From Frigoribacterium faeni (GTDB lineage: Bacteria; Actinomycetota; Actinomycetes; Actinomycetales; Microbacteriaceae): 64,000 nucleotides of DNA. Below, in pieces: positions 1 to 59,184 of the stretch. The stretch spans positions 1,240,781 to 1,304,780 of the forward strand of contig NZ_JAAOYW010000001.1 in the NCBI RefSeq assembly GCF_011761235.1, in the 5' to 3' direction. A program made the position numbers and the translations under genes. Position 1 is the first letter of the stretch. Each line of letters begins with the position of its first letter. The notes below the pieces were generated by a model. It worked only from the letters and a program-made list of their open reading frames with translations. It had not been told where the DNA came from and ran no database searches.

Positions 1-3000
1 GTCCAGCTACCAGGGCCTGCGGTTCTGGTGGTACGCCTCCCAGGCCAACAACCCCGCCTCGCCCACCGCGGGCGCCGACGTCAAGGTCGAGATCAAGGAC
101 GGCGACCCGGCCGGCGGCGGCGACACCGCCGAGACCAGCGAGCTCTGGGCGGCCACGTTCAAGGACAACTGGGGCAGCAGCACCAGCCGCTGGAAGCTCG
201 TCGAGCTGCCGTTCTCGTCGTTCACGCCCTCGGGCTACCAGCCGGGCGACGCCGCCACCACGAACGGCACGCTCGACCTGACGGCCGCGTTCGGCTACTC
301 GATCACCTTCACCCCGGGCACGCCCGCGCCCGTCGGCTGGGCGATCGACGACACCCAGATCTGGGGCACCCCGGCCACCGCCGCGTCGGTCACGGTCGCC
401 TCGCCGCAGGACGTCTGGCTCGTCGACGCGGGGCAGACCGCCGACGTCGCGCTGACGCTGTCGACCGCGGGCGACGAGCCGCTCACCTCGGACGTCGTCG
501 TCGACTGGGCGACCGCCGACGGCACCGCGGTCGAGGGCGTCGACTACGACGCGGCCTCGGGCACGGCGACGTTCCCGGCCGGCTCGCCCTCGGGGACGGT
601 GCAGACGGTCGGCGTGACGACCCGCGCCTCCTCGGGTCCGGCCGAGTCGAGGCAGCTGCAGGTGACGCTCGCGTCGACCACGGCGAAGGTCGGCGACGGC
701 CCCCGCGTCGTCATCGGGGCGCACGACCTGCCCTACCTCGACGCGTCGCTGCCGACCGCCGACCGCGTCGCCGACCTGCTGGGCCGCATGACCCTCGAGG
801 AGAAGGTCGGGCAGATGGCGCAGGCCGAGCGCCTCGGCCTCACGTCGACGAGCGACATCAGCGACCGCGCGCTCGGCTCGCTGCTGAGCGGCGGCGGCTC
901 GGTGCCCGAGGGCAACACCGCCGTGGCCTGGGCCGACATGGTCGACGGCTACCAGCGCGAGGCCCTCTCGACGCGCCTGCAGATCCCGATGATCTACGGC
1001 GTCGACGCCGTGCACGGCCACAGCAACGTGGTCGGGGCGACGATCTTCCCGCACAACACCGGCCTCGGCGCGACCCGCGACCCGGCCCTCGTCGAGCAGA
1101 TCGCCCAGGTCACCGCGAAGGAGGTGCGCGCCACCGGCGTGCCGTGGACCTTCGCGCCCTGCCTCTGCGTCTCGCGCGACGAGCGCTGGGGCCGCAGCTA
1201 CGAGTCGTTCGGCGAGGACCCCGACCTGGTGCGCACCTTCGCCGCGCCCTCGGTGACCGGCCTGCAGGGCGACGACCCGACCGACATCGGCGGGGCCGAC
1301 GAGGTGCTCGCGACCGCGAAGCACTGGGCCGGCGACGGCGGCACGAGCTACGACGAGTCGGTGGTCGGCACCGGGGCGTACCCGATCGACCAGGGCGTCA
1401 CCCACGCCGACTCGCTCGAGGACTTCACCCGCCTGCACGTCGACCCCTACCTGCCGGCCCTCGAGGCCGGGGTGGGCACGATCATGCCGTCGTACTCGGC
1501 GGTCGACCTCGGCGACGGCCCCGTGCGGATGCACGAGAACGGCGCCCTGAACACCGACCTGCTGAAGGGCGACCTCGGCTTCGGCGGGTTCCTCATCAGC
1601 GACTGGGAGGGCATCGACAAGCTGCCCGGCGGCACCTACTCCCAGAAGGCCGTCCGCTCGGTGAACGCCGGGCTCGACATGGCGATGGCGCCCTACAACT
1701 ACGGCGACTTCATCGACAGCATCGTCGCCGCCGTGCGCAAGGGCGACGTCACGCAGGCACGGGTCGACGACGCCGTGCGGCGCATCCTCACGCAGAAGTT
1801 CGACCTGAACCTGTTCGAGCAGCCCTTCGCCGACCGCACCAACGTCGACGGCGTCGGCAGCGCCGAGGACAGGGCGGTGGCCCGCCGGGCCGCGGCCGAG
1901 TCGCAGGTGCTGCTGAAGAACGACGGAGGCGCGCTGCCGCTCGCGAAGGAGGACGCGGACCTCTACGTGGCCGGCTCCACCGCCGACGACCTCGGCCGTC
2001 AGATGGGCGGCTGGACGATCAGCTGGCAGGGCGGGTCGGGCGACACGACGACCGGCACGAGCATCGCCGAGGGCATCCGCCAGGTCGCTCCCGACGCGAC
2101 CGTCACCGTCAGCCCCGGGGCCACCGAGCCGATCCGGACCGACCAGACCGGCGTCGTGGTCGTCGGCGAGCGGCCGTACGCCGAGGGTCAGGGCGACGTC
2201 GGCAACAACGGCTCGAGCCTGTCGCTCACGCCGGACGACCAGGCGATCGTCGAGAAGGTGTGCGCCGCGACCGAGTCGTGCGTCGTGCTCGTCGTCTCGG
2301 GCCGGCCGCAGCTGCTCGGCGACGTCGTCGGCCTCGCCGACGCCGTGGTCGCGTCGTCGCTGCCCGGCTCGGAGGGCGCCGGCGTGGCCGACGCGCTGTT
2401 CGGCGTCCGGCCCTTCGCCGGGCGGCTGCCCGTCACCTGGGCGGCCGATGCCGACCAGGTGCCGATCAACGTGGGCGACGCCGACTACGAACCGCTGTAC
2501 CCGTACGGCTGGGGACTGCGCACCGACGGTGCGCGCGACCGGCTGGAGGCGCTGGTCGCCTCCCTGCCCGCCGGCGCGGCCCGCGACGCGGTGCAGGAGG
2601 TGCTCGACGGCGACGTCTGGGCAGCCGACGGGACCGTGACGGACGACGGCACGGAGCGCCTCCTGCGGCTCCTGCTGGAGGCGGCGGCCCCGTTCACGGG
2701 GACCGACCTCGCCGCGATGGGCCCCGCCGACGACCTCGTCTCGGTCGCGCGCGACCTCGCGCAGGCCGCGATGGTGGACGGCACGGCGGCCACGGGGTCG
2801 GCGGCGCTGTCGGCCGAGGCCGAGAACGCGCTGCAGCGGGGGCTGCCCGACGTGGCGCTCGCACGCCTCGCCGCAGTGCTCGGCATCGACCTCGGCGTCG
2901 TCGAGTCGGCGAAGACGATCGTGCCGGGCACGCTCTCGCCCGCCTCGGCGCGGCCGGGCGACACCGTGTCGATCACGGCGACGGGCTTCGTCGCGGGCGA

Positions 3001-3463
3001 GCCGCTCGCCGGGACGGTCTTCTCCGAGCCGCAGTCGATCGGCGACGCCGAGGCCACCGTGGCGGGGGTGGGCGTGCTCCGGTTCGTCGTGCCGGCCGAC
3101 CTCGAGCCGGGAGCGCACGTGGTCGAGCTCGAGGGCGCCGGGCAGATCGCCCGGGCCACGCTGACCGTGCTCGCGGCGGCCGCGCCGGGCGAGCCCGGCG
3201 GGGGCGACCCGGGCACGGGCGACCCGGGCGCGGGCACGCCGGGCGGCGGTTTGCCGGGTGCCGGCACGCCGGGCGGCTCGGGCGCTCCGGGCGCCGGAGC
3301 GGGCGGCTCGGGGTCGGGCGGCGCGGTCGCCGTGGCGGCGGGCCGGGACGGCCTCGCCTTCACCGGCTCGGACGCCTGGGTCGGCATCGCCGGCACGGCC
3401 GTGCTGCTGATCGCGCTCGGGGCGTGGCTGACGCTGCGCCGTCGCCGCCCCGGCGCCGAGTAG
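1..3463 (+). CDS. Secreted multidomain GH3 beta-glycosidase, 5' truncated by the window edge
   Basis: The frame is open from the first bases, so the N-terminus lies upstream. The visible order is a beta-sandwich carbohydrate-binding-like segment (SSYQGLRFWWYASQ to WAIDDTQIWG, bases 2-370), a Calx-beta-like segment (VDWATADGTAVEGVDYD, about 500-690), the GH3 N-domain from ADLLGRMTLEEKVGQM, the GH3 C-domain, an Ig-like domain and a G/P-rich stalk. The GH3 nucleophile is Asp in LISDW (codon 1601-1603), and AKHWAGDGGT is the conserved KH region. The protein ends in LAFTGSD, a hydrophobic helix and RRRR, like the giant protein at 50726-57664. This suggests sortase-type anchoring on the cell wall. 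Likely role is extracellular release of beta-linked glucose or xylose from plant glucans; substrate is not determinable. An ATG at 599 is internal and not the start. Confidence 0.9.
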   Translation, partial: SSYQGLRFWWYASQANNPASPTAGADVKVEIKDGDPAGGGDTAETSELWAATFKDNWGSSTSRWKLVELPFSSFTPSGYQPGDAATTNGTLDLTAAFGYSITFTPGTPAPVGWAIDDTQIWGTPATAASVTVASPQDVWLVDAGQTADVALTLSTAGDEPLTSDVVVDWATADGTAVEGVDYDAASGTATFPAGSPSGTVQTVGVTTRASSGPAESRQLQVTLASTTAKVGDGPRVVIGAHDLPYLDASLPTADRVADLLGRMTLEEKVGQMAQAERLGLTSTSDISDRALGSLLSGGGSVPEGNTAVAWADMVDGYQREALSTRLQIPMIYGVDAVHGHSNVVGATIFPHNTGLGATRDPALVEQIAQVTAKEVRATGVPWTFAPCLCVSRDERWGRSYESFGEDPDLVRTFAAPSVTGLQGDDPTDIGGADEVLATAKHWAGDGGTSYDESVVGTGAYPIDQGVTHADSLEDFTRLHVDPYLPALEAGVGTIMPSYSAVDLGDGPVRMHENGALNTDLLKGDLGFGGFLISDWEGIDKLPGGTYSQKAVRSVNAGLDMAMAPYNYGDFIDSIVAAVRKGDVTQARVDDAVRRILTQKFDLNLFEQPFADRTNVDGVGSAEDRAVARRAAAESQVLLKNDGGALPLAKEDADLYVAGSTADDLGRQMGGWTISWQGGSGDTTTGTSIAEGIRQVAPDATVTVSPGATEPIRTDQTGVVVVGERPYAEGQGDVGNNGSSLSLTPDDQAIVEKVCAATESCVVLVVSGRPQLLGDVVGLADAVVASSLPGSEGAGVADALFGVRPFAGRLPVTWAADADQVPINVGDADYEPLYPYGWGLRTDGARDRLEALVASLPAGAARDAVQEVLDGDVWAADGTVTDDGTERLLRLLLEAAAPFTGTDLAAMGPADDLVSVARDLAQAAMVDGTAATGSAALSAEAENALQRGLPDVALARLAAVLGIDLGVVESAKTIVPGTLSPASARPGDTVSITATGFVAGEPLAGTVFSEPQSIGDAEATVAGVGVLRFVVPADLEPGAHVVELEGAGQIARATLTVLAAAAPGEPGGGDPGTGDPGAGTPGGGLPGAGTPGGSGAPGAGAGGSGSGGAVAVAAGRDGLAFTGSDAWVGIAGTAVLLIALGAWLTLRRRRPGAE

Positions 3464-3503
3464 CCCGGGCGGCTGCCCGCCGGCGCCGGCGCCCCTCCCC
3501 CCG

Positions 3504-3561
3504 CACCCCGGAGTGGACGATGAACCCCGTAACGACGGGGTGCATCGTCCACTCCGGGGTG
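3504..3561. repeat. 58-bp palindromic element, family 1, copy 1
   Basis: A perfect 19-bp inverted repeat (arms 3504-3522 and 3543-3561, starting CACCCCGGAGTGGACGATG) encloses an inner 7-bp stem ACCCCGT/ACGGGGT, so the whole can fold as a cruciform or RNA hairpin. It lies 40 bp after the GH3 stop codon. A near-identical copy is at 7080-7137 inside the aztC reading frame. This makes it a dispersed element rather than an ordinary terminator, although here it may also stop transcription. Confidence 0.9.
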
Positions 3562-3751
3562 TTCCGCATCCGCACACCGCCGGCGCAGACGGGGGCACGC
3601 GAGGCGGACGCAGCGAAGGAGGCGGCAGGTGCGTCCCGGGGGCGCGCCCACCGCCTCCTAGATCACGGTCAGGTAACGCACCAAACCCATCCAGCATCGG
3701 CGGCGAACCCCTGTCAACTCCCCACCGGGAACCACAGACAAGGAGAACCCC

Positions 3752-4459
3752 ATGAACATCTCACGCAAGACCATCACCAAGTCCGCCTTCGGCATCGTCG
3801 CCTCCGGCGCCCTGATCTTCAGCCTCGCCGCCTGCTCCTCCAGCGACGCCGGCTCGACCTCGTCGTCCTCCGCCGCCCCGTCGTCGTCGTCGTCGGCCGC
3901 GTCCACCGAGCCCCTGGCCTCGCTCCCCGACCTCTCCGGCGGCGTCGACACCCAGGTCGCCGTCGACGCGTCCTTCGTCGAGGCCCTCGGCACCCTCGGC
4001 CTCACCCCCGGAGTCGTCGGCACCGCCGCCTTCGACAGCACCACCGGCACCTTCTCCTTCCCCATCACCGGCGGCAACGTCGATTACTACGACCCCTCCA
4101 GCGACGTCCGCCCCTACGTCCAGGGCGAGATCGACCACGACGGCTCCGGCCTGTCGCTGACCGCCGCCGACGGCACCGTCGTCGAGCTCACCGACTTCCG
4201 CATCGACCCGGGCGAGAGCAAGCTCTACGGCACCGTCACCGCCAACGGCGAAGTCGCAGCCGAGGGCGCCTACCTGTTCAACCTCTACGGCGGCACCCTC
4301 AAGCCCCTCCAGATGGAGGGCACCAACGCCGTCCTCGAGGGCACCACCGTGCACATCAGCCCCGACGCGGCCGCGCTGCTGAACCAGACCTTCAACACCG
4401 ACGCCGTCCAGGACGAGATGCTCGTCGGCGTCGCGAAGATCACCGTCGCCACCGAGTAG
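3752..4459 (+). CDS. Secreted lipoprotein of unknown function
   Basis: A 235-residue protein with signal peptide and lipobox (IFSLAAC, Cys about residue 27), then a Ser-rich linker of about 25 residues and a beta-rich globular domain of about 180 residues (TLGLTPGVVGTAAF, VRPYVQGEIDHDGSGLSL, IDPGESKLYGTVTANG). AAGGAG lies 7 bases before the ATG and fixes the start. I do not recognise the domain. The alternating G-x-[VI] pattern is faintly like HtaA/haem-binding beta domains, but that is only an impression. The gene stands alone between a palindromic element and a strong terminator cluster, and its codon use uses C-ending codons almost exclusively, as expected for a well expressed gene. Confidence 0.85.
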   Translation: MNISRKTITKSAFGIVASGALIFSLAACSSSDAGSTSSSSAAPSSSSSAASTEPLASLPDLSGGVDTQVAVDASFVEALGTLGLTPGVVGTAAFDSTTGTFSFPITGGNVDYYDPSSDVRPYVQGEIDHDGSGLSLTAADGTVVELTDFRIDPGESKLYGTVTANGEVAAEGAYLFNLYGGTLKPLQMEGTNAVLEGTTVHISPDAAALLNQTFNTDAVQDEMLVGVAKITVATE

Positions 4460-4484
4460 GGCCTTCCCGGCTCGAACGGCGACG

Positions 4485-4517
4485 ACACCGGCCCCGACCC
4501 TGCACGAGGGCCGGTGT
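4485..4517 (+). terminator. Rho-independent-like terminator of the lipoprotein gene
   Basis: Perfect 10-bp stem ACACCGGCCC/GGGCCGGTGT with a 13-base loop, 25 bp after the stop codon, followed by TT but no long T tract, as is common in high-G+C actinobacteria. Confidence 0.75.
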
Positions 4518-4528
4518 TCCCGGTGGGG

Positions 4529-4558
4529 CCCCGTCCCGCGCTCACGCGCGGGGCGGGG
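4529..4558 (+). terminator. Second G+C-rich hairpin after the lipoprotein gene
   Basis: CCCCGTCCCGCGC pairs with GCGCGGGGCGGGG across TCAC with one G-T pair, and is followed by TT. It is a tandem back-up terminator to the hairpin at 4485. Confidence 0.6.
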
Positions 4559-4590
4559 TTCTCGCACGTCCGGGGGCGGCTGTCGCGACC

Positions 4591-4622
4591 GTTCAGGAGG
4601 TGCCGACCCGCGCCTCCTGAAC
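4591..4622. repeat. Short TTCAGGA-type inverted repeat
   Basis: GTTCAGGAGG and CCTCCTGAAC form a perfect 10-bp inverted repeat around a 12-base spacer. The ends match those of the larger elements at 46219, 46481 and 50543, which begin CGTTCAGGA and end TCCTGAACG, so it may be a minimal or decayed relative. The right arm also carries the GCGCCTCCT motif. Confidence 0.6.
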
Positions 4623-4651
4623 GAGGAGAGCCCCCCGCCCCACGCGCAGGT

Positions 4652-4705
4652 GAGAGGCCGCAGATCGACGCTCCCCCGACGGGGAAGGTCGATCTGCGGC
4701 CTCTC
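4652..4705. terminator. Bidirectional terminator or palindrome between convergent genes
   Basis: A perfect 18-bp inverted repeat (GAGAGGCCGCAGATCGAC and its complement, 4652-4669 and 4688-4705) encloses a small TCCCC/GGGGA inner stem. It lies 29 bp from the stop of the leftward aztD-like gene and faces the rightward lipoprotein gene, so it can stop transcription from both sides. Confidence 0.75.
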
Positions 4706-4733
4706 GCCGTGCCGGCGACGCCGGCGACGCCGG

Positions 4734-6092
4734 CTAGCCGGTGACCACCGCGATCTCGTTGGCCTCGACGCCGAGGTCGGCCGTGGCCGTCACCTCGCCG
4801 GTCGCGACGTCGACCGCGTGGATCGCGCCCGCCGCGGGGTCGGTCACCCACGCCGTGTCGCCGACGACCGACAGGCTCGAGTGCGAGTCCTGCCACTCGG
4901 CGGGCCCCTCCCAGGCGTCGATCACCGGGTACGAGGCGCCGAACGAGCCCGTCGCGACGTCGAGCAGGTGCAGCGCCCCGTCGGTGCCGAGCACGAGCGC
5001 GTCGTCGTCGGCGGTGCGGCCGACGCCCTTCCACGTGTAGGAGACGCCCGCGGGCAGGTCCAGCACCTGCGAGGTCGCCGCCGCGGTGTCGACCTTCGTG
5101 AGCTGCGTCAGCTCGTACCCCTCCGAGTCCGGGTCGCTGTTGTAGTCGCCCAGCATGACGGACGACGAGTCGGTCACGTAGGCGTTGCCGGTGCGGCCGT
5201 ACTCGTCCGCCGCGGCGATCTTCGTGAAGGCGCCGTCGTCGTAGAGCAGCACGCCGTCGCTGCAGCCGAACACCGCCACCTCGTCGGCCGTGGTGCCCTC
5301 GCCGTGCACGGACGGGCACTCCTCGCTGCGGGCGGTCTCCTGCCCCTCGGCGTCGAGGGCGCGCACGCCGACCCGCGACTCCGAGTCGCCGATCGTCGTG
5401 AGCAGGGTGCCGTCCTCGAGCTCGATCGACACGCCGTGGTGCGCCTCGGGCGACGAGATCGTCTCGGTCGCGGGCAGCTCGCCGGTCTCGGAGACGTCGA
5501 GCAGGTCGGCCGTCTCGAACACGGTCGTGTCGCCGGTGCCGTCCGAGAACAGGATCGTCTTGTCGCCGTGCCGCACGACGTGGCCGGGCGTCGGCGCCTC
5601 GAAGACGAGGTCGGTGAGCTCGGGCTCGGCGACGTGGTGCGTGCCGCCGGTCGTCCAGGCCCCGGTGTCGAGCACCCGGAACCCCTCCTCGGTCGAGACG
5701 AGCACGTGGCGTCCGTCGCCGGCCGGGTTCACCCGGTTGAAGCCGGCCAGCTCGACGTCGGCCACGGTCTCGAGGGTCGTCGCGTCGAGCACGAGCACCC
5801 CGCCGTCGTAGGTGGCCGCGATGCGGGGCTGCGCCGAGGAGGCGGTGGTCGCGCCGTTCCCGGAGGCCGCGCCGGCCGCGTCGTCGGCACCCGCGCCTCC
5901 TGCGCCTGCCGTGCCTCCCGTGCCTGCCGTGCCGGAGCACGCCGTGAGGGCGAGCGCGGCGGAGGCGGCGAGCGCGAGGCCGGCGAGGGTCGTCGCGCGG
6001 CGTCGCGGGGCGGGCTGGCGCGGGGTCTGCTGTCGCGGGGTCTGCTGTCGCGGGGTCTGGGGCTGGGTCCGGGTCTGGTGTCGCTGTGTCAT
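4734..6092 (-). CDS. aztD: Zinc metallochaperone AztD-like lipoprotein, copy 1
   Basis: A 452-residue secreted beta-propeller-like protein. Motifs are typical of AztD, the extracytoplasmic zinc chaperone that loads the binding protein AztC: GGVLVLDATTLE, FNRVNPAGDGRHVLVST, TTGGTHHVAEPELTD, HVVRHGDKTILFSDGTG, SSPEAHHGVSIELEDG and the terminal TADLGVEANEIAVVTG. His pairs in THHVAEPE and EAHHG are candidate zinc ligands. The signal sequence ends in a lipobox (ALALTAC). The N-region is lengthened by about four near-identical QTPRQ units from a 15-bp tandem repeat. It is the last gene of aztB-aztD2-aztC-aztD1, 40 bp after aztC. It is closer to the classic AztD pattern than copy 2, so it is the more likely chaperone; assignment is by motif memory, not alignment. 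Confidence 0.85.
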   Translation of the reverse strand: MTQRHQTRTQPQTPRQQTPRQQTPRQPAPRRRATTLAGLALAASAALALTACSGTAGTGGTAGAGGAGADDAAGAASGNGATTASSAQPRIAATYDGGVLVLDATTLETVADVELAGFNRVNPAGDGRHVLVSTEEGFRVLDTGAWTTGGTHHVAEPELTDLVFEAPTPGHVVRHGDKTILFSDGTGDTTVFETADLLDVSETGELPATETISSPEAHHGVSIELEDGTLLTTIGDSESRVGVRALDAEGQETARSEECPSVHGEGTTADEVAVFGCSDGVLLYDDGAFTKIAAADEYGRTGNAYVTDSSSVMLGDYNSDPDSEGYELTQLTKVDTAAATSQVLDLPAGVSYTWKGVGRTADDDALVLGTDGALHLLDVATGSFGASYPVIDAWEGPAEWQDSHSSLSVVGDTAWVTDPAAGAIHAVDVATGEVTATADLGVEANEIAVVTG

Positions 6093-6132
6093 GTGGTCCG
6101 TTTCCGTGTCGTGTTCGGGTGGGGGTGGCCGG

Positions 6133-7182
6133 TCAGGGAGACAGGCCGGTCGCGATGAGCTGCCCGTTCGAGCGCATCATCTCGAGGTAGGTCTCGGCTC
6201 CCCCGCCGGGGGCGCTGAGCGATTCGGTGTGCAGGGCGACGACGTCGACCTCGACGTCGGCCTCGTCGGCGAGCACCTGCACCAGGCGGTCGGGCTGGGA
6301 GGCGTCGGCGAAGATCGTCGCGACCCCCGCCTCCTCGATCGCCTCGGTGAGCCCGGCGAGGTCGGACGCGCTCGGCGCGGCCAGCGTCGTGCCGCTCGGC
6401 AGCACGGCCCCGACCACCCGGAACCCGTAGCGCTCGGCCAGGTAGCCGAAGACGTGGTGGTTCGTCACGAGCGCGCGGCGCTCGGCCGGGATCGCGCCGA
6501 AGCTCGCCTCGAGGTCGGCGTCGAGCTGCACGAGCTGCTGTCGGTAGGAGGCGGCGGCCGCCTCGAGCGCACCGGCGTCGAGGCCGTCGACCTGCGTCGC
6601 CAGCTCGTGCTCGAGCCCGTCGACGACGTCGAGCACGCGCGCCGGGTCGGTCCAGAAGTGCGGGTCGGGCTCGCCCTCGGCGTCGCCCTCCGCGTAGGCG
6701 AGGGGCTCGATGAGGTCGCCGGCCTCGACGACGGGGACGCCCGCCGCGGCCGCGGAGTCGACGTGCTGCCGCAGCCCCTCCTCGAGGCCGAGGCCGTTCG
6801 CGACGACCAGGTCGGCCTCGCGCAGGTCGGCGGCCTCGCGGGCCGAGATCTCGACGCTGTGCGGGTCGGCTCCCGGGGGCATGAGCGTGACGACCTCGGC
6901 CTGGTCGCCGACCAGCTCGCCGACGACGTCGCCGAGGATGTTCGTCGTCACGACGACGCGCGGGGCGGCGGTGTCGGTGGTGCCGGTGGTGCCGGTGCGT
7001 GCGCCGCCGGTGTCGTCGCCGAGGGCGGAGCAGCCGACGGCGACGAGCAGCAGCGCGGCCGCGGTCGTCACGGCTGCGGCACCCCGGAGTGGACGATGAA
7101 CCCCGGAACGACGGGGTGCATCGTCCACTTCGGGGTGCGAGAGGCGGGCGGCGGCGCGCGGGGCCCGGCGGGCGGCGCTCAT
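6133..7182 (-). CDS. aztC: Zinc ABC transporter substrate-binding lipoprotein AztC/ZnuA-like
   Basis: A 349-residue cluster A-I metal-binding protein (ZnuA/AztC/TroA fold). Candidate zinc ligands are visible in ADPHSVEIS, PDPHFWTDP, TNHHVFGYLAERYG and TIFADASQPDR. The expected order of beta-alpha domain, long helix and second domain is kept. The start ATG overlaps the stop of the upstream aztD2 (ATGA at 7179-7182), which fixes it. The oddity is residues 16-34 (HPEVDDAPRRSGVHRPLRG), which are encoded by the 58-bp palindromic element at 7080-7137. It sits between the basic n-region and the hydrophobic core that ends in VAVGC, giving an unusually long, partly acidic n-region. A GTG inside the element (codon V19) is a possible alternative start. 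The protein should still be exported as a lipoprotein and hand zinc to AztB. Confidence 0.9.
   Translation of the reverse strand: MSAARRAPRAAARLSHPEVDDAPRRSGVHRPLRGAAAVTTAAALLLVAVGCSALGDDTGGARTGTTGTTDTAAPRVVVTTNILGDVVGELVGDQAEVVTLMPPGADPHSVEISAREAADLREADLVVANGLGLEEGLRQHVDSAAAAGVPVVEAGDLIEPLAYAEGDAEGEPDPHFWTDPARVLDVVDGLEHELATQVDGLDAGALEAAAASYRQQLVQLDADLEASFGAIPAERRALVTNHHVFGYLAERYGFRVVGAVLPSGTTLAAPSASDLAGLTEAIEEAGVATIFADASQPDRLVQVLADEADVEVDVVALHTESLSAPGGGAETYLEMMRSNGQLIATGLSP
7080..7137. repeat. 58-bp palindromic element, family 1, copy 2, inside the aztC frame
   Basis: It matches copy 1 at 3504-3561 except for two bases: one in the inner stem and one in the right arm (CACTTCGGGG for CACTCCGGGG). 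It lies fully within aztC and is translated as 19 in-frame residues of the signal-peptide region. Intergenic and coding copies of one palindrome in the same window show that it is mobile or was mobilised. Confidence 0.9.
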
Positions 7183-8546
7183 CGGCCCGTCTCCACGACG
7201 AGGCGGCCCGGCAGCGACAGCGTGCGGGCGACCCGCGCCGAGTCGGCGTGGTCGATCTCGTGCACGACCCCGGCCGACGGCGAGTTCAGGTAGCTGCGCG
7301 AGGCGTCGACCTCGAGCACGACGCCCGCGGGCAGCTCGGGCCCGTCGGCGCCGGCGACGAGGTCGGCGGCGACGAGCGGCTCGGTCTGCGCCACGACGCC
7401 CTGGGGCGAGAGCACGACGACGCGGCCCGAGGCGTCGACGGCGACCACGGTGCCGTCGGCGTCGCCGACCGCCGTCGCCCGCAGCAGCGGCTCGGGAGTC
7501 TCGATCAGGGTCCAGGCGCGGGCACGCGTGTCGAGCAGCCAGGCTCCCCGGTCCCCCGCGACGGAGGCGACGGCCGGGCGACCGGGACGGGCGGCGAACG
7601 AGGTGGCCGCCTCCGAGGCGGTCGGCGCCGCGTCGGCCGGGTACGGGATCCGCTCGAGCTCGGCGTGGCCGGCCGCGTCGACGGTCGCGAGCACGGCGCC
7701 GTCGGAGCAGCCGACGACCACGCCGACCCGGGTCGCTGCCGCGCCCCGCAGGTCGGGGCAAGGGGCCTCGAGGCCGTCGACCGGCTCGCCGTCGGCGGTC
7801 GTGACGACGACCGTGTCGGCGCGGCGCCGCGGCCCGTCGGCGCCCGCGGGCCCGTCCGTGACGCTTCCGTCCGTGGCGCTCCCGCGGACGACGCTCGCCA
7901 CCACGTGGTCGCCGAGCGGCACGAGCACGCCGTCGTGCGGCGTCCCCTCGACGCGGCCGACCTCGTCCACCTCGCCGTCGGCCAGGGCGTCGCCGTCGAG
8001 CACGAGCCCCGTGCCCGTGGTCGGCCAGAAGGCGGCGGTGAGGGAGGCGCTGGAGGCGACCCGCACCTCCTGCGCTCCGTCGTCGGAGGACGGGACGGCG
8101 TCGCCGGTCTCGACGTCGAGGTCCCCGGGCTCGGCGACGACCCGCGGCTCGGCGAGGTAGTAGTGCGAGTGGTCGCCGTGGGGCACCGTCCAGGCGCCTC
8201 CGTCGACGATCGTGAGCGCGCCGTCCGGGCCGGCCGCGAAGAGGTGGCGACCGTCGGTGGCGAGCGAGGAGGCGTCGCCGAGCGCACCTCCCGACGCGAG
8301 CTCGACGGTCTCGCCGGTGGCGGGGTCGAGGGCCGTGAGCACGTCGCCGTCGAGGGCGACGAGGCGGAGCTGCGGCTCCTGGAGCTCACGGGCCCCCTCG
8401 ACGTACCCGTGCGGCACGGCGGTCTCGTCGGCGGAGGCGGCGTCGTCGGGTCCGGTGCCGGCACGGGTGCCGTCCGCGCTGCAGGCCGTGAGGGCGAGCA
8501 GGGCGGCGAGGGCGGCGGGCAGCAGGGCTGTGGTTCGTCTGGTCAC
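7179..8546 (-). CDS. AztD-like zinc metallochaperone paralogue, copy 2
   Basis: A 455-residue lipoprotein (lipobox LLALTAC). It is a diverged AztD-type propeller: LRLVALDGDVLTALDPATGE, ATDGRHLFAAGPDG and the His cluster VPHGDHSHYYLAEPRV, which is richer in His than copy 1 and a likely zinc site. GTG is the start; it overlaps the stop of aztB (GTGA, 8543-8546), and the gene overlaps aztC by ATGA at its end, so translation is coupled across three genes. The EAHHG motif of copy 1 is missing and the propeller is more degenerate, so it may be a specialised partner or scavenger. Having two AztD-type genes flanking one aztC is unusual. Confidence 0.8.
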   Translation of the reverse strand: MTRRTTALLPAALAALLALTACSADGTRAGTGPDDAASADETAVPHGYVEGARELQEPQLRLVALDGDVLTALDPATGETVELASGGALGDASSLATDGRHLFAAGPDGALTIVDGGAWTVPHGDHSHYYLAEPRVVAEPGDLDVETGDAVPSSDDGAQEVRVASSASLTAAFWPTTGTGLVLDGDALADGEVDEVGRVEGTPHDGVLVPLGDHVVASVVRGSATDGSVTDGPAGADGPRRRADTVVVTTADGEPVDGLEAPCPDLRGAAATRVGVVVGCSDGAVLATVDAAGHAELERIPYPADAAPTASEAATSFAARPGRPAVASVAGDRGAWLLDTRARAWTLIETPEPLLRATAVGDADGTVVAVDASGRVVVLSPQGVVAQTEPLVAADLVAGADGPELPAGVVLEVDASRSYLNSPSAGVVHEIDHADSARVARTLSLPGRLVVETGR

Positions 8547-9553
8547 GGGTGCGAGGGCTCTTCCTGTCGGGCGGAGGGGGCGGGGTCGGGGCGCGTGGAG
8601 GGCGCAGGGCCGCGGGCGAGGTGCATCGCGGTAGAGCGCACAGCGGTCGAGCGCTCGGCGGTCTTGCGCACGGCTGTCGACCGCACGGCTGTCGACCGCA
8701 CGGCGCCTGCGCGCCCGGGCGTCGAGGCCGAGGAGGCGCGGCCCGAGACCACGGCACGCGCCGCGGCCGACAGCCCGGCCAGCCCCACCGCGCACGCGGC
8801 GATGCTCGCGCCGGCCGCCGTCGAGGCGTGCCACGAGACGAGCAGCCCGAGGAACACGGCGACGGCGCCCACCCCGGCGGCGGCGGCCATCGTGGTGGGG
8901 ATGCGACGGGTCCACCGGGCTGCGGCGACCGCCGGGGCGAGCAGCAGCCCCACGACGAGCAGGCTGCCCACCGCCTGGTACGACGCGACGACGACGAGCG
9001 TCACGAGGCCGACGAGCACGACGTGGGCCACGCCGGGGCGCAGGCCTGAGGTGCTCGCGACGCGCGGGTCGAAGGCGAGCGCGACGAAGGGGCGGTGGAA
9101 CGCGGCCGTGACCGCCACGCCCACGACGACGGCGACCGCGATGGAGACGAGGTCGTCCTGGTCGACGGCGAGGACGTCGCCGAACAGCACGGCGGTGAGG
9201 TCGGTCGCGAACGAGCGCGACCGTGACACGATCACGACGCCGACGCTGAGCATCGCGACGTAGAGCAGGCCGATCGCGGTGTCGGGCGAGACCCGCGAGC
9301 GGCGCGTGACGAGGCCGACGCCGGCCGTCATCATGGCGGCGCTGACGGCCGCGCCGAGCACGGCGGGGAGCCCCACGAGGGAGGCGACGGCCACCCCCGG
9401 CAGGACCCCGTGCGCCATCGCCTCGCCGAGGAACGCCGTGCCGCGGACGACGACCCAGGTGCCGACGACGCCGCAGAGCACGGCGACGAGCACGCCGCCG
9501 ACGAGGGCTCGGAGCATGAACGCGGTGCTGAACGGGTCGAGGAGGAAGGCCAC
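8543..9553 (-). CDS. aztB: Zinc ABC transporter permease AztB/ZnuB-like
   Basis: A 336-residue ABC-3 family permease with about eight membrane segments (VGGVLVAVLCGVVGTWVV, GVLPGVAVASLVGLPAVL, VAHVVLVGLVTLVVVASY, SLLVVGLLLAPAVAAA). GTG at 9553 is chosen because it gives LLDPFSTAFMLRAL, the usual family start just before the first helix, and leaves room for the divergent promoter. Residues after about 285 form an extra tail, with STAVR repeated several times from a 15-bp tandem repeat (about 8635-8710). Family members normally stop before it, so the tail is probably dispensable. It pairs with AztA and AztC to import Zn2+. Confidence 0.88.
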   Translation of the reverse strand: MAFLLDPFSTAFMLRALVGGVLVAVLCGVVGTWVVVRGTAFLGEAMAHGVLPGVAVASLVGLPAVLGAAVSAAMMTAGVGLVTRRSRVSPDTAIGLLYVAMLSVGVVIVSRSRSFATDLTAVLFGDVLAVDQDDLVSIAVAVVVGVAVTAAFHRPFVALAFDPRVASTSGLRPGVAHVVLVGLVTLVVVASYQAVGSLLVVGLLLAPAVAAARWTRRIPTTMAAAAGVGAVAVFLGLLVSWHASTAAGASIAACAVGLAGLSAAARAVVSGRASSASTPGRAGAVRSTAVRSTAVRKTAERSTAVRSTAMHLARGPAPSTRPDPAPSARQEEPSHP

Positions 9554-9569
9554 GAGGCACGACCATACA

Positions 9570-9591
9570 TGAAAACGATTATCAGTATGAT
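9570..9591. promoter_or_regulatory. Zur-like zinc operator in the aztA/aztB divergent promoter
   Basis: TGAAAACGATTATCAGTATG has the A/T-rich TGAAAA-N-GATT-N-TCA layout of actinobacterial Zur boxes, and is a strongly A/T island in a 73% G+C region. It overlaps the aztA -10 hexamer and lies 17 bp from the aztB start, so zinc-loaded Zur could repress both directions. Confidence 0.75.
9586..9591 (+). promoter_or_regulatory. -10 hexamer of leaderless aztA
   Basis: TATGAT ends 6 bases before the aztA ATG at 9598, so transcription should start at or next to the A of ATG. There is no ribosome binding site before the ATG, consistent with a leaderless mRNA. Confidence 0.65.
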
Positions 9592-9597
9592 CTAGCC

Positions 9598-10284
9598 ATG
9601 GACACCGCCGCCGACCCTGCTCCGCCCTCGCTCGACGTCGCCGCACCGGCCTCGGGGACGCTCGCGCGCCTCCTCGGGGTGACCGCCCGACACGACGGCC
9701 ACACGGCCCTCGACACCGTCGACCTCGACGTGCGGCGGGGTCGGCTGACGGTGCTCGTCGGCCCGAACGGCTCGGGCAAGTCGACCCTGCTCGGCGTGCT
9801 CGCGGGCACGCACCGCGACCTGGCGGGGCAGGTGGAGCTGCCCGCCCCCGGGTCGACCGCGGTCGTCGTGCAGCGCAGCGCGGTCACCGAGCGCCTGCCG
9901 ATCACGGTCCGCGAGACGGTCGCGATGGGGCGCTGGGCGTCGCTCGGGCCGTGGCGGCCGCTGCGCCGGAGGGACCGCGCCGTCGTCGACGAGTGCCTCG
10001 AGGCGCTCGACGTCGCCGACCTCGCCCGGCGGCCGCTCGCGGCGTTGTCGGGCGGGCAGCGGCAACGCGTGCTCGTCGCGCAGGGGCTGGCACGGCGAGC
10101 CGACCTGCTGCTGCTCGACGAGCCGACCGCCGGGGTGGACGCCGCGGCGACGGCGCTCATCCGGGCCGCGGTCGCCGCCGAGCTCGCCCGGGGAGCCACG
10201 GTGGTCGAGGCCACCCACGACCACGAGCTCCGCGGGCCCGGGGTCGACGTCGTGCACCTGGTCGACGGCCGCCGCGTCGCGTGA
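9598..10284 (+). CDS. aztA: Zinc ABC transporter ATP-binding protein AztA-like
   Basis: A 228-residue ABC ATPase. Walker A is GPNGSGKST (residues 55-63), followed by the Q-loop in VVVQRSA, signature LSGGQRQR, Walker B LLLLDEPTAG and the H-loop in ATHDHE. Its size and the MGRW segment after the Q-loop fit metal-uptake ATPases of the ZnuC/AztA group. The ATG follows a -10 hexamer by 6 bases (leaderless). It diverges from aztB across a 44-bp region with a Zur-like box, so AztA, AztB and AztC should form one importer induced by zinc starvation. Confidence 0.9.
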   Translation: MDTAADPAPPSLDVAAPASGTLARLLGVTARHDGHTALDTVDLDVRRGRLTVLVGPNGSGKSTLLGVLAGTHRDLAGQVELPAPGSTAVVVQRSAVTERLPITVRETVAMGRWASLGPWRPLRRRDRAVVDECLEALDVADLARRPLAALSGGQRQRVLVAQGLARRADLLLLDEPTAGVDAAATALIRAAVAAELARGATVVEATHDHELRGPGVDVVHLVDGRRVA

Positions 10285-10307
10285 GCGGCGGGTGCTTGGA
10301 TGGCCCG

Positions 10308-10727
10308 ATGACGCCGGACCTGCCGCCCGACCTCCCGCCCGTCGAGTTCGCGTTCCCCGGGCCCCTGCGCGACGCGATCGTCGCCGCGGTCCTGGCGGGC
10401 GACAAGACGTCGACGAGCTCGCTGCTCCGCGAGTACGAGCGGGCCGACGAACCGCTGCCGGCCGTCGGCGACCGGGGCGTCGTGCTCGACTCCGAAGGAG
10501 GCGCGGTGGCGGTCATCGAGACCACCGCCGTCAGCGTCGTCCCCCTGCACGCGGTCGACCTCGACCACGCCGTCGCGGAGGGCGAGGGCTACGCCGACGT
10601 CGCCGCCTGGCGCCGGGGCCACGAGCGCTTCTGGCGGTCGGACGAGATGCGCGCCGAGCTCGGCGACGGGTTCGAGCTCGACGACGACACGCAGGTCGTG
10701 CTCGAGCGGTTCGCGGTGGTCCGGTGA
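10308..10727 (+). CDS. ASCH domain-containing protein
   Basis: A 139-residue protein of the ASCH/YqfB-like fold. Motifs are EFAFPGPLRDAIVAAVLAGDKTSTSSL, a central VGDRGVVLDSEGGAVAVIETTAV strand pair and the acidic DLDHAVAEGEGYADVAAWRRGHERFW stretch that is characteristic of this group. ASCH proteins are thought to bind RNA or hydrolyse modified nucleosides such as N4-acetylcytidine; the specific role here is unknown. The ATG is 23 bp after aztA and in the same direction, so it is probably co-transcribed, but I see no functional link to zinc. Confidence 0.85.
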   Translation: MTPDLPPDLPPVEFAFPGPLRDAIVAAVLAGDKTSTSSLLREYERADEPLPAVGDRGVVLDSEGGAVAVIETTAVSVVPLHAVDLDHAVAEGEGYADVAAWRRGHERFWRSDEMRAELGDGFELDDDTQVVLERFAVVR

Positions 10728-10743
10728 CGCGCGGCGTCGCTGC

Positions 10744-10817
10744 GCCGCGACACCCCGGACGCCGCACCACACCCCGATCGATCCGGGTGTCGTGCGGCAC
10801 ACGGGGTGTCGCGCGGC
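10744..10817. repeat. Imperfect 74-bp palindrome
   Basis: GCCGCGACACCCCG through ATCGAT to CGGGGTGTCGCGCGGC is an imperfect inverted repeat with arms of about 34 bp centred on ATCGAT. It starts 17 bp after the ASCH stop codon and may end aztA/ASCH transcription. No second copy was seen in the window. Confidence 0.65.
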
Positions 10818-10920
10818 CATGAGCTCGCCGGACGATCCCGCCGGCGTGCGGGGCACGGGGTGCCGCGCAGCGCGCTGGCCGATCTTGCTCGCAGCGCGTC
10901 GGGCACGACCAGCCGCCCCT

Positions 10921-10982
10921 GACACCGCCGAGTGAACGGAACACCGCCGAATTACGCCGTGTTCCGTTCACTCGGCGGTGTC
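10921..10982. repeat. Perfect 24-bp inverted repeat with 14-base loop
   Basis: Arms 10921-10944 and 10959-10982 (starting GACACCGCCGAGTGAACGG) are exactly complementary. Size and layout match the other intergenic palindromes of the window, but the sequence is distinct, so this is a further family. It sits in a 429-bp gap between convergent genes. Confidence 0.85.
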
Positions 10983-11106
10983 GAAGCGGGGTCGGAGCGT
11001 GGGGCGCGGCGGTGGCCGACGCGTGCAGCCGCGCGGCGAGCACGACCGCGCGGCGGGCACGGCGGCGCGACGGCGCGACGTGCGGCGGGCGCCGCGCGAA
11101 CGACGG

Positions 11107-11137
11107 ACGCCCCGCCGCCGGGTCGGCAGCGGGGCGT
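11107..11137 (-). terminator. Hairpin downstream of deoC
   Basis: ACGCCCCGC and GCGGGGCGT form a perfect 9-bp stem around a 13-base loop, 20 bp after the deoC stop on the minus strand. There is no T tract. The rest of 10983-11106 is G+C-rich with no gene or other signal that I can support. Confidence 0.6.
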
Positions 11138-11156
11138 CTCGACGACGACGCGTCGG

Positions 11157-11855
11157 CTAGTACGAACCGGACCCCGTGGAGGCGGCACCCGCGCCGCCGA
11201 GCAGCGCCCGCGACCCCGAGACGCCCAGCCGCGTGGCTCCCGCGGCGACGTAGGCCTGCGCGTCGGCCAGGCTGCGGACGCCGCCCGACGCCTTGACGCC
11301 GAGGCGTCCGCCGACGGTCTCGGCCATCAGCCGGACCGCGTGCTCGGACGCGCCCCCGGCCGGGTGGAAGCCCGTCGACGTCTTGACGAAGTCGGCACCG
11401 GCCGACTCGGCCGCACGGCACGCGCCGACGATCGCGTCGTCGCTCAGCGCGGCCGACTCGATGATGACCTTGAGCACCGTCGGGGCGGGCACGGCCTGGC
11501 GGACGGCGGCGATGTCCTCCTCGATCGAGGCGAAGTCGCCCGCGACCGCGGCGCCGACGTCGATGACCATGTCGACCTCGTCCGCGCCGGAGCGCACGGC
11601 CTCGGCGGCCTCGGCGGCCTTGACGGCGGAGGTGTGCTTGCCGCTGGGGAACCCGGCGACCACGGCGACCTTGAGGTCGGAGCCCTCGGGCAGCACCAGA
11701 GGCAGCATCGACGGCGAGACGCACACCGAGTAGGTGCCGAGCTCGATCGCCTCGGCCACCAGGGCGTCGACGTCGGCACGGGTGGCCTCGGGCTTGAGCA
11801 GGGTGTGGTCGATGAGGCGCGCCACGTCGGCGCTGGTCAGGGTCGTCTCGGTCAT
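11157..11855 (-). CDS. deoC: Deoxyribose-phosphate aldolase
   Basis: A 232-residue DeoC that cleaves 2-deoxyribose-5-phosphate to glyceraldehyde-3-phosphate and acetaldehyde in deoxynucleoside catabolism. The Schiff-base lysine is Lys158 in FVKTSTGF, the proton-relay lysine is Lys188 in GVKASGG, and the active-site Asp is in DMVIDVGA. Full length for the short bacterial class. The ATG overlaps the stop of the GMC oxidoreductase (ATGA, 11852-11855), so it is the last gene of a coupled three-gene operon. That pairing with a flavoprotein dehydrogenase is unusual, because deoC normally sits with nucleoside phosphorylases. Confidence 0.95.
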
Positions 11856-14988: not shown

Positions 14989-15064
14989 GGTCGAGGGCGG
15001 GCGTTCCGGGCCGAGGGCGGGTGGCCGCCGACCCGCCCTCGGCCCGGAATACCCGCCCTCGACC
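14989..15064. repeat. 76-bp palindromic element, family 2, copy 1
   Basis: Arms of 34 bp (14989-15022 and 15031-15064) starting GGTCGAGGGCGGGCGTTCCG are complementary except for two bases, around an 8-base loop. Each arm itself contains CGAGGGCGGG twice. A second copy lies at 28348-28423. It sits between the hydrolase-fusion gene start and the MMPL stop. Confidence 0.9.
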
Positions 15065-28347: not shown

Positions 28348-28423
28348 GGTCGAGGGCGGGCGTTCCGGACCGAGGGCGGGTCGGCGCGGACCCGCCCTCG
28401 AGCCGGAAGACCCGCCCTCGAGC
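28348..28423. repeat. 76-bp palindromic element, family 2, copy 2
   Basis: Same size, 8-base loop and arm sequence (GGTCGAGGGCGGGCGTTCCG at the left end) as the copy at 14989-15064, with a few changes in the right arm that weaken pairing. It lies in the spacer between the DUF2071 start and the SDR stop. Confidence 0.88.
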
Positions 28424-46218: not shown

Positions 46219-46316
46219 TCGTTCAGGAAGCCGCGAGGCCCGGGTTCCTGATCGCTGCACGATTCAGGACGCCCGCGTCCTGAACTGTGCGACTCAGGAC
46301 GCACGTTCCTGAACGA
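46219..46316. repeat. 98-bp multi-hairpin element, family 3, copy 1
   Basis: Outer arms TCGTTCAGGAA (46219-46229) and TTCCTGAACGA (46306-46316) enclose further TCAGGA/TCCTGA pairs, including TTCAGGACGCCCGCGTCCTGAA in the middle, so it can fold into two or three stacked hairpins. Copies at 46481-46577 and 50543-50639 share the ends and the inner order. It follows the LacI stop by 48 bp. Confidence 0.88.
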
Positions 46317-46403
46317 GGGAGCGCAGGAGGTGCGGGTCGGGTCGGCCGGATCAGGTGGGACCGCGTCGGACGGGAGGGGCGGGAGCGGCTGGCGGGCACT
46401 CCG

Positions 46404-46480: not shown

Positions 46481-46577
46481 TCGTTCAGGAAGTCTCGGGC
46501 CCGAGTTCCTGATCGGTGCACGGTTCAGGATGCTCGCGTCCTGAACTGCGCGACTCAGGACGCGCGTTCCTGAACGA
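46481..46577. repeat. 97-bp multi-hairpin element, family 3, copy 2
   Basis: Same ends (TCGTTCAGGAA and TTCCTGAACGA) and inner TTCAGGA...TCCTGAA hairpin as copy 1, with about 85% identity by eye. The shared flanks CTCTCG before and GAGGGAG/GAGGAGAG after extend the outer stem. Differences in one arm are often matched in the other, so the fold is kept. Confidence 0.88.
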
Positions 46578-46599
46578 GGAGAGAAGGAGGGGGGACGGC

Positions 46600-57936: not shown

Positions 57937-59184
57937 GTGCACTCCCTCGACGGCCTCGGCCACGCCACGGTCACCGTCGTGGGGGCAGGCCAGGCCGGGC
58001 TGTCCGCGGCGCACCACCTGCGCCTCCGCGGGTTCGCGCCGGCCGAGGGCGGGGCTCGTCGCGCAGCGGCTGATCCGTCACGGGACGGAGCACCGCCCAC
58101 CATCGCTGATCCGTCACGAGACGGAACACCACCCGCCCTCGCTGATCCGTCACGAGACGGAGCGCCACCCACCGTCGCTGATCCGTCACGGGACGGAGCA
58201 GCGCCCACCGTCGTCGTCGTGGACGCGGGCGAGGCCCCCGGAGGCGCGTGGCGGCACCGCTGGGAGTCGCTGCGGATGGCGACCGTCAACGGCATCTTCG
58301 ACCTGCCCGGCATGCCGCTGCCCCCCGTCGACCCCACCGAGCCGAGCCGCGACGCCGTGCCGCGGTACTTCGCGGCGTACGAGGAGGCGGAGGGCCTGCA
58401 GGTGCACCGCCCCGTGCACGTCACCTCGGTCGAGGCCGTCGACGACGACCCGGCCGGCGAGCTCCGCGTGGCGAGCACCGCCGGCAGCTGGACGACCTCG
58501 GCGCTCGTGAACGCGACCGGCACCTGGGACGAGCCCGTGCTGCCCGACGTGCCGGGCGCCTCCTCGTTCTCGGGTCGGCAGCTGCACACCCGGGAGTACG
58601 TCTCGGCGGCCGAGTTCGCGGGGCAGCGGGTCGCCGTCGTCGGCGGCGGCATCTCGGCCGTGCAGCTGCTCGACGAGATCAGCCGCGTGGCGACGACGCT
58701 CTGGTACACGCGGCGCGAGCCGGTGTTCCTCGACCACGAGTTCACGTCGGGGTCGGACGGCGTCGACGTCGAGCGGCGGGTCGCCGAGGACGCGGCCCTC
58801 GGCCGTCCGTCGCGCAGCATCGTCTCGTACACGGGGCTGATCTGGACCGGCTACGCGCGCGCCGCCCGGCGGCGGGGCGCGCTCGAGCGGCGTCCGATGT
58901 TCACGGCGATGGGGCCGCGGCACGTCGTCGAGGCCGACGGCGGGGCGACGAGCGTCGACGCGGTGCTCTGGGCGACGGGGTTCCGGCCGAGCATCCGGCA
59001 CCTCGACGGGCTCGACCTGCGCGGTCCGCTCGGCGGCGTGCCGCTCGACGGGACCCGCGCGGCACGCGACCGGCGCGTCCACCTGATCGGCTACGGGCCG
59101 TCGCAGTCGACGGTGGGGGCGAACCGGGCCGGGCGGGCGGCCGCCCGCGAGGTGGCGCGCGACCAGCTCGGGCCGCGCGGCTGA
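57937..59184 (+). CDS. FMO-like FAD/NAD(P)-binding oxidoreductase with a repeat insertion
   Basis: A 415-residue flavoprotein with FAD motif VTVVGAGQAGLSAAHHLRLRG (in two parts: GAGQAG and the helix) and GGAWRHRWESL. NADPH motif VAVVGGGISAVQLLDEI, and the end motif LWATGFRP near the C-terminus, fit flavin-containing monooxygenase-like or thioredoxin-reductase-like NAD(P)-binding proteins. Between beta 1/alpha 1 and beta 2 of the FAD domain, residues about 45-92 are four copies of ADPSRDGxPPxx from a 36-bp tandem repeat. Related proteins pass directly from the helix to VVVVDAGEAPGGAWRHRW. The extra loop would point out from the fold and probably tolerates length change. GTG is leaderless. The substrate is unknown. 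Confidence 0.85.
   Translation: MHSLDGLGHATVTVVGAGQAGLSAAHHLRLRGFAPAEGGARRAAADPSRDGAPPTIADPSRDGTPPALADPSRDGAPPTVADPSRDGAAPTVVVVDAGEAPGGAWRHRWESLRMATVNGIFDLPGMPLPPVDPTEPSRDAVPRYFAAYEEAEGLQVHRPVHVTSVEAVDDDPAGELRVASTAGSWTTSALVNATGTWDEPVLPDVPGASSFSGRQLHTREYVSAAEFAGQRVAVVGGGISAVQLLDEISRVATTLWYTRREPVFLDHEFTSGSDGVDVERRVAEDAALGRPSRSIVSYTGLIWTGYARAARRRGALERRPMFTAMGPRHVVEADGGATSVDAVLWATGFRPSIRHLDGLDLRGPLGGVPLDGTRAARDRRVHLIGYGPSQSTVGANRAGRAAAREVARDQLGPRG
58069..58212 (+). repeat. 4 x 36-bp in-frame tandem repeat with internal palindrome
   Basis: Units start at 58069, 58105, 58141 and 58177, each beginning GCTGATCCGTCACG(G/A)GACGG(A). TCCGTC and GACGGA form a 6-bp inverted repeat in each unit. The unit length is a multiple of three and each encodes ADPSRDG(A/T)(P/A)P(T/A)(I/L/V). 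It resembles palindromic elements known inside genes of other bacteria. Confidence 0.92.

Follow-up and report, generated by a model that had tools for sequence, protein, structure and literature searches.

The palindromes and their neighbourhood

The window analysed here is a stretch of 64,000 nucleotides from Frigoribacterium faeni (C1:1240781-1304780, on contig NZ_JAAOYW010000001.1 of a 3.2 Mb genome in five contigs that we label G000), and the subject of this report is a short palindrome that occurs near its left end both behind one gene and within another. The two 58-bp copies, at 3504-3561 and 7080-7137, differ at only two bases (T at 3530 versus G at 7106, and C at 3554 versus T at 7130). 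The positions and the count of two differences had been given in an original prediction made from the letters alone, and they are borne out, with an aligned unit of 60 nt. Both palindromes are hairpins with 27-nt arms, and the two 60-mers fold as RNA at -57 and -50 kcal/mol, a stability that none of 200 shuffled sequences reached. Scanned for arms of some 15 nt and longer, the window has 11 hairpins, including these two and ordinary terminators; three order-2 Markov resamples of the window contained 0, 0, and 1 such hairpins. Chance palindromes were dropped as an explanation on the basis of the hairpin arms, these resamples, and a survey with shuffled arms described below.

The first element (subfamily A, 3503..3562, no strand assigned, 77.0 bits with our covariance model) lies about 40 bp past the stop codon at 3463 of a plus-strand gene that enters the window from the left (2..3463) and for which GH3 is solely the label of the original prediction. 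The element can be divided into X (3503-3510), Y (3511-3521), a second X (3522-3529), a loop (3530-3535), and the matching parts X' (3536-3543), Y' (3544-3554), and X' (3555-3562). The second element (subfamily A, 7079..7138, 77.1 bits) is in the reading frame of aztC (6133..7182, minus strand), where it falls between the n-region and the h-region of the lipoprotein signal. This gene, named as in the original prediction, encodes a periplasmic-type metal-binding lipoprotein of an ATP-binding cassette (ABC) transporter (PF01297, ZnuA). The gene upstream (7179..8546, minus strand), which we take to be aztD-like, overlaps the aztC start by 4 bp (ATGA). Among named sequences, those nearest to the AztC of the window belong to F. 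endophyticum and Frigoribacterium sp. PhB160 (82% each), both in a genus of the Microbacteriaceae. The record L043, which bears the title Vibrio cholerae strain 35D, also encodes a protein 57% identical to the AztC of the window and is probably a mislabelled or contaminated assembly.

A third element (subfamily B, 10922..10981, 67.2 bits) occupies a spacer between convergent genes, together with a diverged, weaker element of like build (10750..10809, 39.3 bits, E 1e-7). The orthologous spacer in genome G015 also contains a B copy (C1:870673).

Build of the element and its repeated box

When the genome of the window was searched with the first palindrome and with the third palindrome of the window (10921-10982, different in letters and like in build), 48 places belonging to subfamilies A and B were found, one of them partly masked. 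The larger genomic family that had been predicted from two copies is therefore present. Thirty-eight elements, which we chose from about 79, align over 60 columns without gaps and share the build X8-Y11-X8-loop6-X8'-Y11'-X8'. Columns 3-5 and 22-24 (ACC), 7, 13, 16, and 26 are near-fixed, while columns 1, 2, 6, and 8 are variable. In this alignment, 94% of 1026 cells are paired and 20 of the 27 pairs have changed on both sides, and neither value was reached in 500 shuffles. Length is near-constant, with nearly all covariance-model matches spanning exactly 60 nt.

The outer and inner X boxes of an element resemble each other closely. We picked 145 distinct elements on their pairing and on the ACC of their outer boxes, ignoring the inner box. 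At an offset of 19, the outer and inner boxes of these elements match at 7.30 of 8 positions, compared to at most 2.95 at offsets of 15-18 and 20-22. When the outer box of one element is compared with the inner box of a different one, agreement is 6.01 of 8, and the highest of 500 shuffles was 6.17. In the same set, columns 6 and 25 are identical in 263 of 290 cases. An earlier measure, biased by a filter for agreement of at least 5 of 8, gave 7.21 versus 5.85, with column 6 equal to column 25 in 294 of 328 cases. Hairpin pairing joins each X only to the X' at its own level, outer or inner, and does not link outer to inner, so the outer-inner match needs more than the stem; the elements are related by descent, and the shuffles thus overstate its significance. 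The rule also holds in other genera, where 76 of 104 variable-column cells agree in 13 matches (mean 47.6 and maximum 61 in 2000 shuffles). These 13 elements are the best matches of 13 of the 21 matching other-genus genomes and were found with a model that leaves the outer and inner columns unlinked. The simplest reading of these sequence patterns would be a single recognition box used four times, with a putative protein that recognizes it.

In a survey of the window together with 1.29 Mb of fetched DNA (with some overlap), 24 hairpins had arms of at least 24 nt, and 18 of these carried a repeated end motif, always at an offset of 19 or 20. An end-motif score of at least 8 was reached by 12 of the 24 hairpins and by 0 of 240 shuffled arms. 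Hairpins with the 20-nt step (classes C and F, of 70-76 nt) probably form a second kind, which was kept out of our other counts. Its members, with X being CGAGGGCGGGT or TCGGCGGGT, lie at 14989-15064 and 28350-28421 in the window and, elsewhere, at 11226, 12679, and 18979 of L148 (G012) and at 6471 of L147 (G011). In the spacer at 14989, the genome of the window and G012 have the CGAGGGCGGG type, and G015 and G011 have a palindrome of the TCGGCGGG type instead.

Distribution among genomes

A covariance model was built from the 38 aligned copies; its calibration was short, so its E-values are rough. At E 0.001, with 150 candidates scored per genome, all 16 Frigoribacterium genomes matched, with 49-141 matches each; both strands of a palindrome are counted, so the elements number about half of this. 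In a sample of the Microbacteriaceae, at least 28 of 299 genomes and at least 11 of 85 genera matched at E 1e-4, seven of the 28 genomes being Frigoribacterium, and these are lower bounds given the strict filters and the at most 18 candidates scored. Confinement of the element to one clade was dropped after the genus and family surveys. An order-level search at E 1e-6 matched 7 of 396 genomes, four of them in the same family; in the other three, only one locus (L320) keeps X, at 7 of 8 positions, and we make no claim for them. Subfamily A is patchy: G000, G011, G012, and G015 have 31-44 matches each, and the remaining 12 of the 16 genomes have 0-3.

The subfamily A consensus had no blastn match at E 0.1 among 50,697 phage and 72,556 plasmid records, and we rejected phage or plasmid cargo as an explanation for this consensus alone. 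In Rfam, window positions 3000-11500 gave ten matches, all under the gathering scores and only to hairpin models of microRNAs from eukaryotes or viruses. As to placement along the chromosome, the 17 known subfamily A sites of G015 all lie outside a 1.35 Mb sector of that genome (C1 from about 0.88 to 2.23 Mb; dnaA is at 218.7 kb), and positions 1-900 kb of G000 C1 have no A/B match at E 0.001. Judging by the direction of synteny around the window, these two sectors possibly correspond.

Gene context

Gene calls around the elements come from a caller of our own, which is based on codon usage and was trained on the window. Of 164 elements in six genomes, 71 were placed between convergent genes, 70 between tandem ones, and 6 between divergent ones; 16 were called inside genes, and 1 is at the edge of a stretch. 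This set is what remains of 167 after removal of two matches in L150 (a conserved terminator, and 8839, possibly a real diverged element) and one poly-G artefact in L168. The caller took a downstream GTG as the start of aztC, which put the aztC copies of the genome of the window and of G012 under tandem in these counts, and three of the 16 cases inside genes (L242, L243, and L291) are doubtful gene calls that were not used as coding copies.

Spacers bearing elements comprise 47 convergent, 55 tandem, and 5 divergent ones, compared to 38, 106, and 60 element-free spacers in the same element-centred stretches. Fisher tests give p 5e-8 for the deficit of divergent spacers and p 4e-6 for the excess of convergent ones, with orthologous spacers not being independent. 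An earlier background of 25 convergent, 67 tandem, and 25 divergent spacers came from a single orthologous region in four genomes. Within the genome of the window, none of the 48 A/B copies was called between divergent genes. Of the 70 elements in tandem spacers, 50 lie nearer the stop codon of the upstream gene than the start codon of the downstream one.

Copies within protein-coding genes

In-frame copies occur at three addresses, namely the signal region of aztC, the linker of a fused ABC-ATPase pair that we call dppDF (PF00005 twice), and the linker of a second fused ABC-ATPase gene. It had been proposed that the palindrome is tolerated in a weakly constrained protein region, which agrees with the signal region and linkers that the coding copies occupy. 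In aztC, the element of the window is in frame, as previously claimed, and takes up parts of codons 15-35 (7079-7138) between the start at 7182 and the lipobox Cys. Four of the 16 Frigoribacterium genomes have an element here, of subfamily A in G000, G012, and G015 and of subfamily D in G011. The other 12 have no covariance-model match inside the gene at E 0.01; in G009 an imperfect palindrome is seen by eye at the site, and F. endophyticum (G001/L036) has just 14 nt between the aligned flanks. The expectation that AztC orthologues without the element lack the segment is thus supported, and we found neither an equivalent segment in AztC throughout the family nor a genome limited to the two initial copies.

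The dppDF linker contains an element in five of the 16 genomes, A/B in G000 and D-type in G015, G011, G009, and G001, with no model match in the other 11, of which nine yielded a linker sequence (G002 and G014 having failed a motif filter). In the second fused ABC-ATPase gene, 12 of the 14 genomes that bear the gene (gene E 1e-90) have in-frame elements, one to three per linker and all in phase 0, although the G003 copy is weak (25.5 bits). No element was found there at E 0.01 in G006 and G014, and no gene match in G000 and G007. This copy is decayed and yet alike as protein in several outgroup species, and is therefore old there. Three near-identical in-frame copies with similar flanking residues occur in this linker in L298 (G005), and two in L307 (G004), which suggests local duplication of a linker segment carrying the element.

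The aztC and dppDF elements are in phase 2. With coding copies in both phase 2 and phase 0, it is the DNA that they have in common, and not one peptide. In both ABC-ATPase linkers the reading frame passes through the element. In aztC, an in-frame GTG inside or past the element could be the real start, and we therefore only infer translation of the whole element there. Judged from sequence, the element would be read as about 20 extra signal or linker residues in AztC and the two ABC-ATPase proteins.

The coding copies might also be former intergenic copies at gene junctions, which became coding through an upstream aztC start or through fusion of ABC-ATPase genes. This origin would suit the preference of the elements for 3' ends, and each of the three coding addresses is a junction between genes or may once have been one. 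In G011, a GTG just past the element gives a plausible lipoprotein signal, and open frames are on average more numerous in elements than in shuffled palindromes, which is not a strict test given that the copies are related. However, the ATGA start of aztC is kept in element-free G001, and fused ABC genes exist without a linker element, both in dppDF (the nine element-free linkers above) and in the second gene (G006 and G014). We regard a junction origin as possible, and rather unlikely.

Different subfamilies at the same address

Orthologous positions were compared in fetched element-centred stretches from four close genomes, a sampling that favours co-occurrence. The pairs comprise 44 with like subfamily, 9 with different subfamilies (two of them doubtful, one a poly-G artefact and the other a degenerate copy, L255:2139), and 3 intermediate ones, and a further 14 comparisons had no element. 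Differences at one address include the aztC site, with A in G000, G012, and G015 versus D in G011, and the dppDF linker, with A/B in G000 versus D-type in G015, G011, G009, and G001; at each of the two, 29-34 of 60 positions are identical. Likewise, the 3' end of the GH3 gene has an A copy in G000 (3504) and a D copy in G015 (881932).

In 38 orthologous pairs of the same subfamily, one-sided changes account for 122 pair positions and two-sided changes for 13, of which 6 are paired in both copies. Subfamilies differ by two-sided changes and orthologous copies mainly by one-sided ones, and compensation therefore goes with the origin and spread of subfamilies. One-sided change at resident sites is expected of mobile repeats, and selection on the hairpin at each site explains it less easily, although the low divergence of the stem leaves room for some constraint.

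Nature of the element

We consider it likely that a mobile, non-autonomous DNA repeat of the Microbacteriaceae has produced the palindromes as its copies. This reading is carried by dispersed near-identical copies and by the variation of copy number and subfamily between sister species, together with the in-frame copies in three genes, the position mostly behind genes, and the mainly one-sided change of resident copies. Box X would then serve as the recognition box for a subfamily-specific DNA-binding or recombining protein, which would copy or move the hairpin, and new copies would persist chiefly behind genes and in flexible parts of proteins, places where the harm they do may be small. More tentatively, the four X boxes may be cognate sites of a subfamily-specific recombinase or copying enzyme on the folded hairpin, such that a box change made jointly in all four places gives rise to a new subfamily, and incoming subfamilies overwrite residents at fixed gene-end or linker addresses. 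We hold this as a possibility that is less likely than not.

Several observations weigh against mobility. Target-site duplications of k = 2 to 8 were within the shuffled range for the 164 elements, and six attempts to find an empty site with exact borders yielded none (three without a flank match and three with linker or spacer divergence). The original prediction had also proposed a search for a repetitive extragenic palindrome (REP)-associated tyrosine transposase (RAYT) or other transposase; PF01797 was absent from all 16 Frigoribacterium genomes, while 5 of 14 controls, including E. coli, were positive. Ten genes adjoining element clusters belonged to metabolic or transport families or had no match, and included no transposase; only PF01797 was sought genome-wide. 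A G is preferred at +4 outside the 60-mer (72%), which hints at a target preference or at slightly longer ends. The idea that the 60-nt length alone preserves the reading frame was dropped, since by this flank preference the real insert may differ from 60 nt. Finally, 44 orthologous pairs have like subfamilies, in a sampling that favours co-occurrence, and two further points would also fit a host function: orthologous elements are on average 91.4% identical versus 89.0% for the aligned flanks, and the loop has changed at 47 of 228 sites, more than the stem.

A first alternative is that the element is a miniature inverted-repeat transposable element (MITE) of an ordinary insertion sequence, the transposase of which is present or has been lost. 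A MITE would be in keeping with the terminal inverted repeats and with the dispersal of copies that carry no gene, but not with the missing duplication signal, the near-constant length, or the internal X boxes at a fixed 19-nt step, nor with the failure of the subfamily A consensus to match any of the phage and plasmid records by blastn. A MITE origin is unlikely in our view.

We give somewhat less credence to host-functional hairpins maintained by selection at gene ends, that is, bidirectional 3'-end elements acting in T-tract-free termination, stabilisation, RNase III processing, or as gyrase or nucleoid-protein sites. The position behind genes, nearer to the upstream stop in most tandem spacers, would be expected of such hairpins, as would the frequent conservation at orthologous sites, the covariation at 20 of 27 pairs, and a stem that changes less than the loop. 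Two ordinary hairpins of the window nevertheless behave unlike the elements in that they hold both place and sequence: the one at 43614 is near-identical and in place in 3 of 3 sister regions, and the one at 46599 in 2 of 2 with both flanks found. A host function is also at odds with mostly one-sided change in orthologous copies, with copies inside reading frames, and with the patchiness of subfamily A. None of 328 element flanks has a T-tract (at least 5 T in 8 nt), which argues against this explanation in general and rules out intrinsic terminators in particular.

Classical REP elements moved by a RAYT are very improbable: placement behind genes in convergent and unidirectional spacers resembles that described for REPs in PMC3733652, and there may be a slight excess of outward GACG (CGTC read inward) within 10 nt (31 of 328 flanks, a minority, versus 23.0 expected), but the elements are 60 nt long rather than 20-40, and a RAYT-driven REP is rejected on the absence of PF01797 and on the tag counts in the 328 flanks. 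The observed (and expected) counts were 1 (2.0) for GTAG, 0 (3.2) for CTAC, and 16 (20.2) for outward CGTC, so that any single REP tag is present on at most a tenth of the flanks.

Comparison with known repeats

Rickettsia palindromic elements (RPEs), to which the palindrome had been likened, are described in PMC10969869 as palindromic, with several families per genome, and as occurring in frame in unrelated genes, with a length of about 150 bp and a conserved peptide. The likeness, which we compared by description, stands as far as palindromes in frame within unrelated protein genes and several families per genome are concerned. It fails in length, the Frigoribacterium element having 60 nt and not about 100-150 bp, and in the single conserved peptide, given the two or more phases. 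We know of no mobilizer of RPEs.

REPs are short and intergenic, lie behind genes mainly in convergent or unidirectional spacers, and have occasional copies in genes, according to PMC3733652, a paper in which the words actinobacteri, Clavibacter, and Microbacter are absent. The Frigoribacterium elements are like REPs and bacterial interspersed mosaic elements in being short, palindromic, intergenic, behind genes, and occasionally within them. In contrast, they are longer, have an X-Y-X build with four boxes, and lack both a RAYT (16 genomes) and a characteristic GTAG/CGTC tag.

Prokaryotic MITEs such as ERIC, CIR, Correia, and QMITE are, according to PMC10969869, non-autonomous, with terminal inverted repeats and stable hairpin transcripts. 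The Frigoribacterium elements share the terminal inverted repeats, the non-autonomy, and a stable predicted RNA hairpin, but differ in having no target-site duplication signal, a near-constant length, and an end box that is repeated internally. A further parallel concerns the boxes themselves. In the integron attC site, the folded strand shows two paired boxes a fixed distance apart, which is similar to the paired boxes here, except that the Frigoribacterium boxes are alike and in direct order.

In the open-access literature on Microbacteriaceae or actinobacterial repeats, RPEs, and REPs or RAYTs, no title or beginning of an abstract among those listed describes this palindrome family, which is no proof of absence. 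Overall, the Frigoribacterium palindrome appears to be mobile and to belong to an undescribed type of repeat, one that works like RPEs and REPs and departs from both in the features listed above. The results support the original interpretation in the main and add to it two more coding genes, the subfamily differences at the same address, and the four-box build.

Other repeats in the window

The window contains three further repeats. Positions 51168-56329 hold 17-18 tandem copies of a 267-bp unit (89 codons), about 60-80% alike, with stops in frame 1 of the plus strand. Tandem repeats of 36 bp (GCTGATCCGTCACGGGACGGAGCACCGCCCACC type) occupy 58033-58248, and related stretches occur near 845 kb in G015. 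An 82-bp direct repeat (46237-46318 and 46498-46579, 91% identical) has CCTGA/TCAGG boxes and represents another palindromic build.

Implications

To our knowledge, in-frame palindromic repeats are best known from Rickettsia. The Frigoribacterium system is found in free-living high-G+C actinobacteria and offers many genomes, several subfamilies, and differing states at the same address in sister species. It provides a natural series for how a DNA hairpin becomes the sequence of a protein linker or signal peptide, and the four matching boxes at a 19-nt step make the hunt for the moving enzyme concrete. If true, the reading in which an enzyme recognizes the four boxes would mean that small mobile palindromes of a new kind, which do not depend on RAYTs, repeatedly add in-frame segments to proteins.

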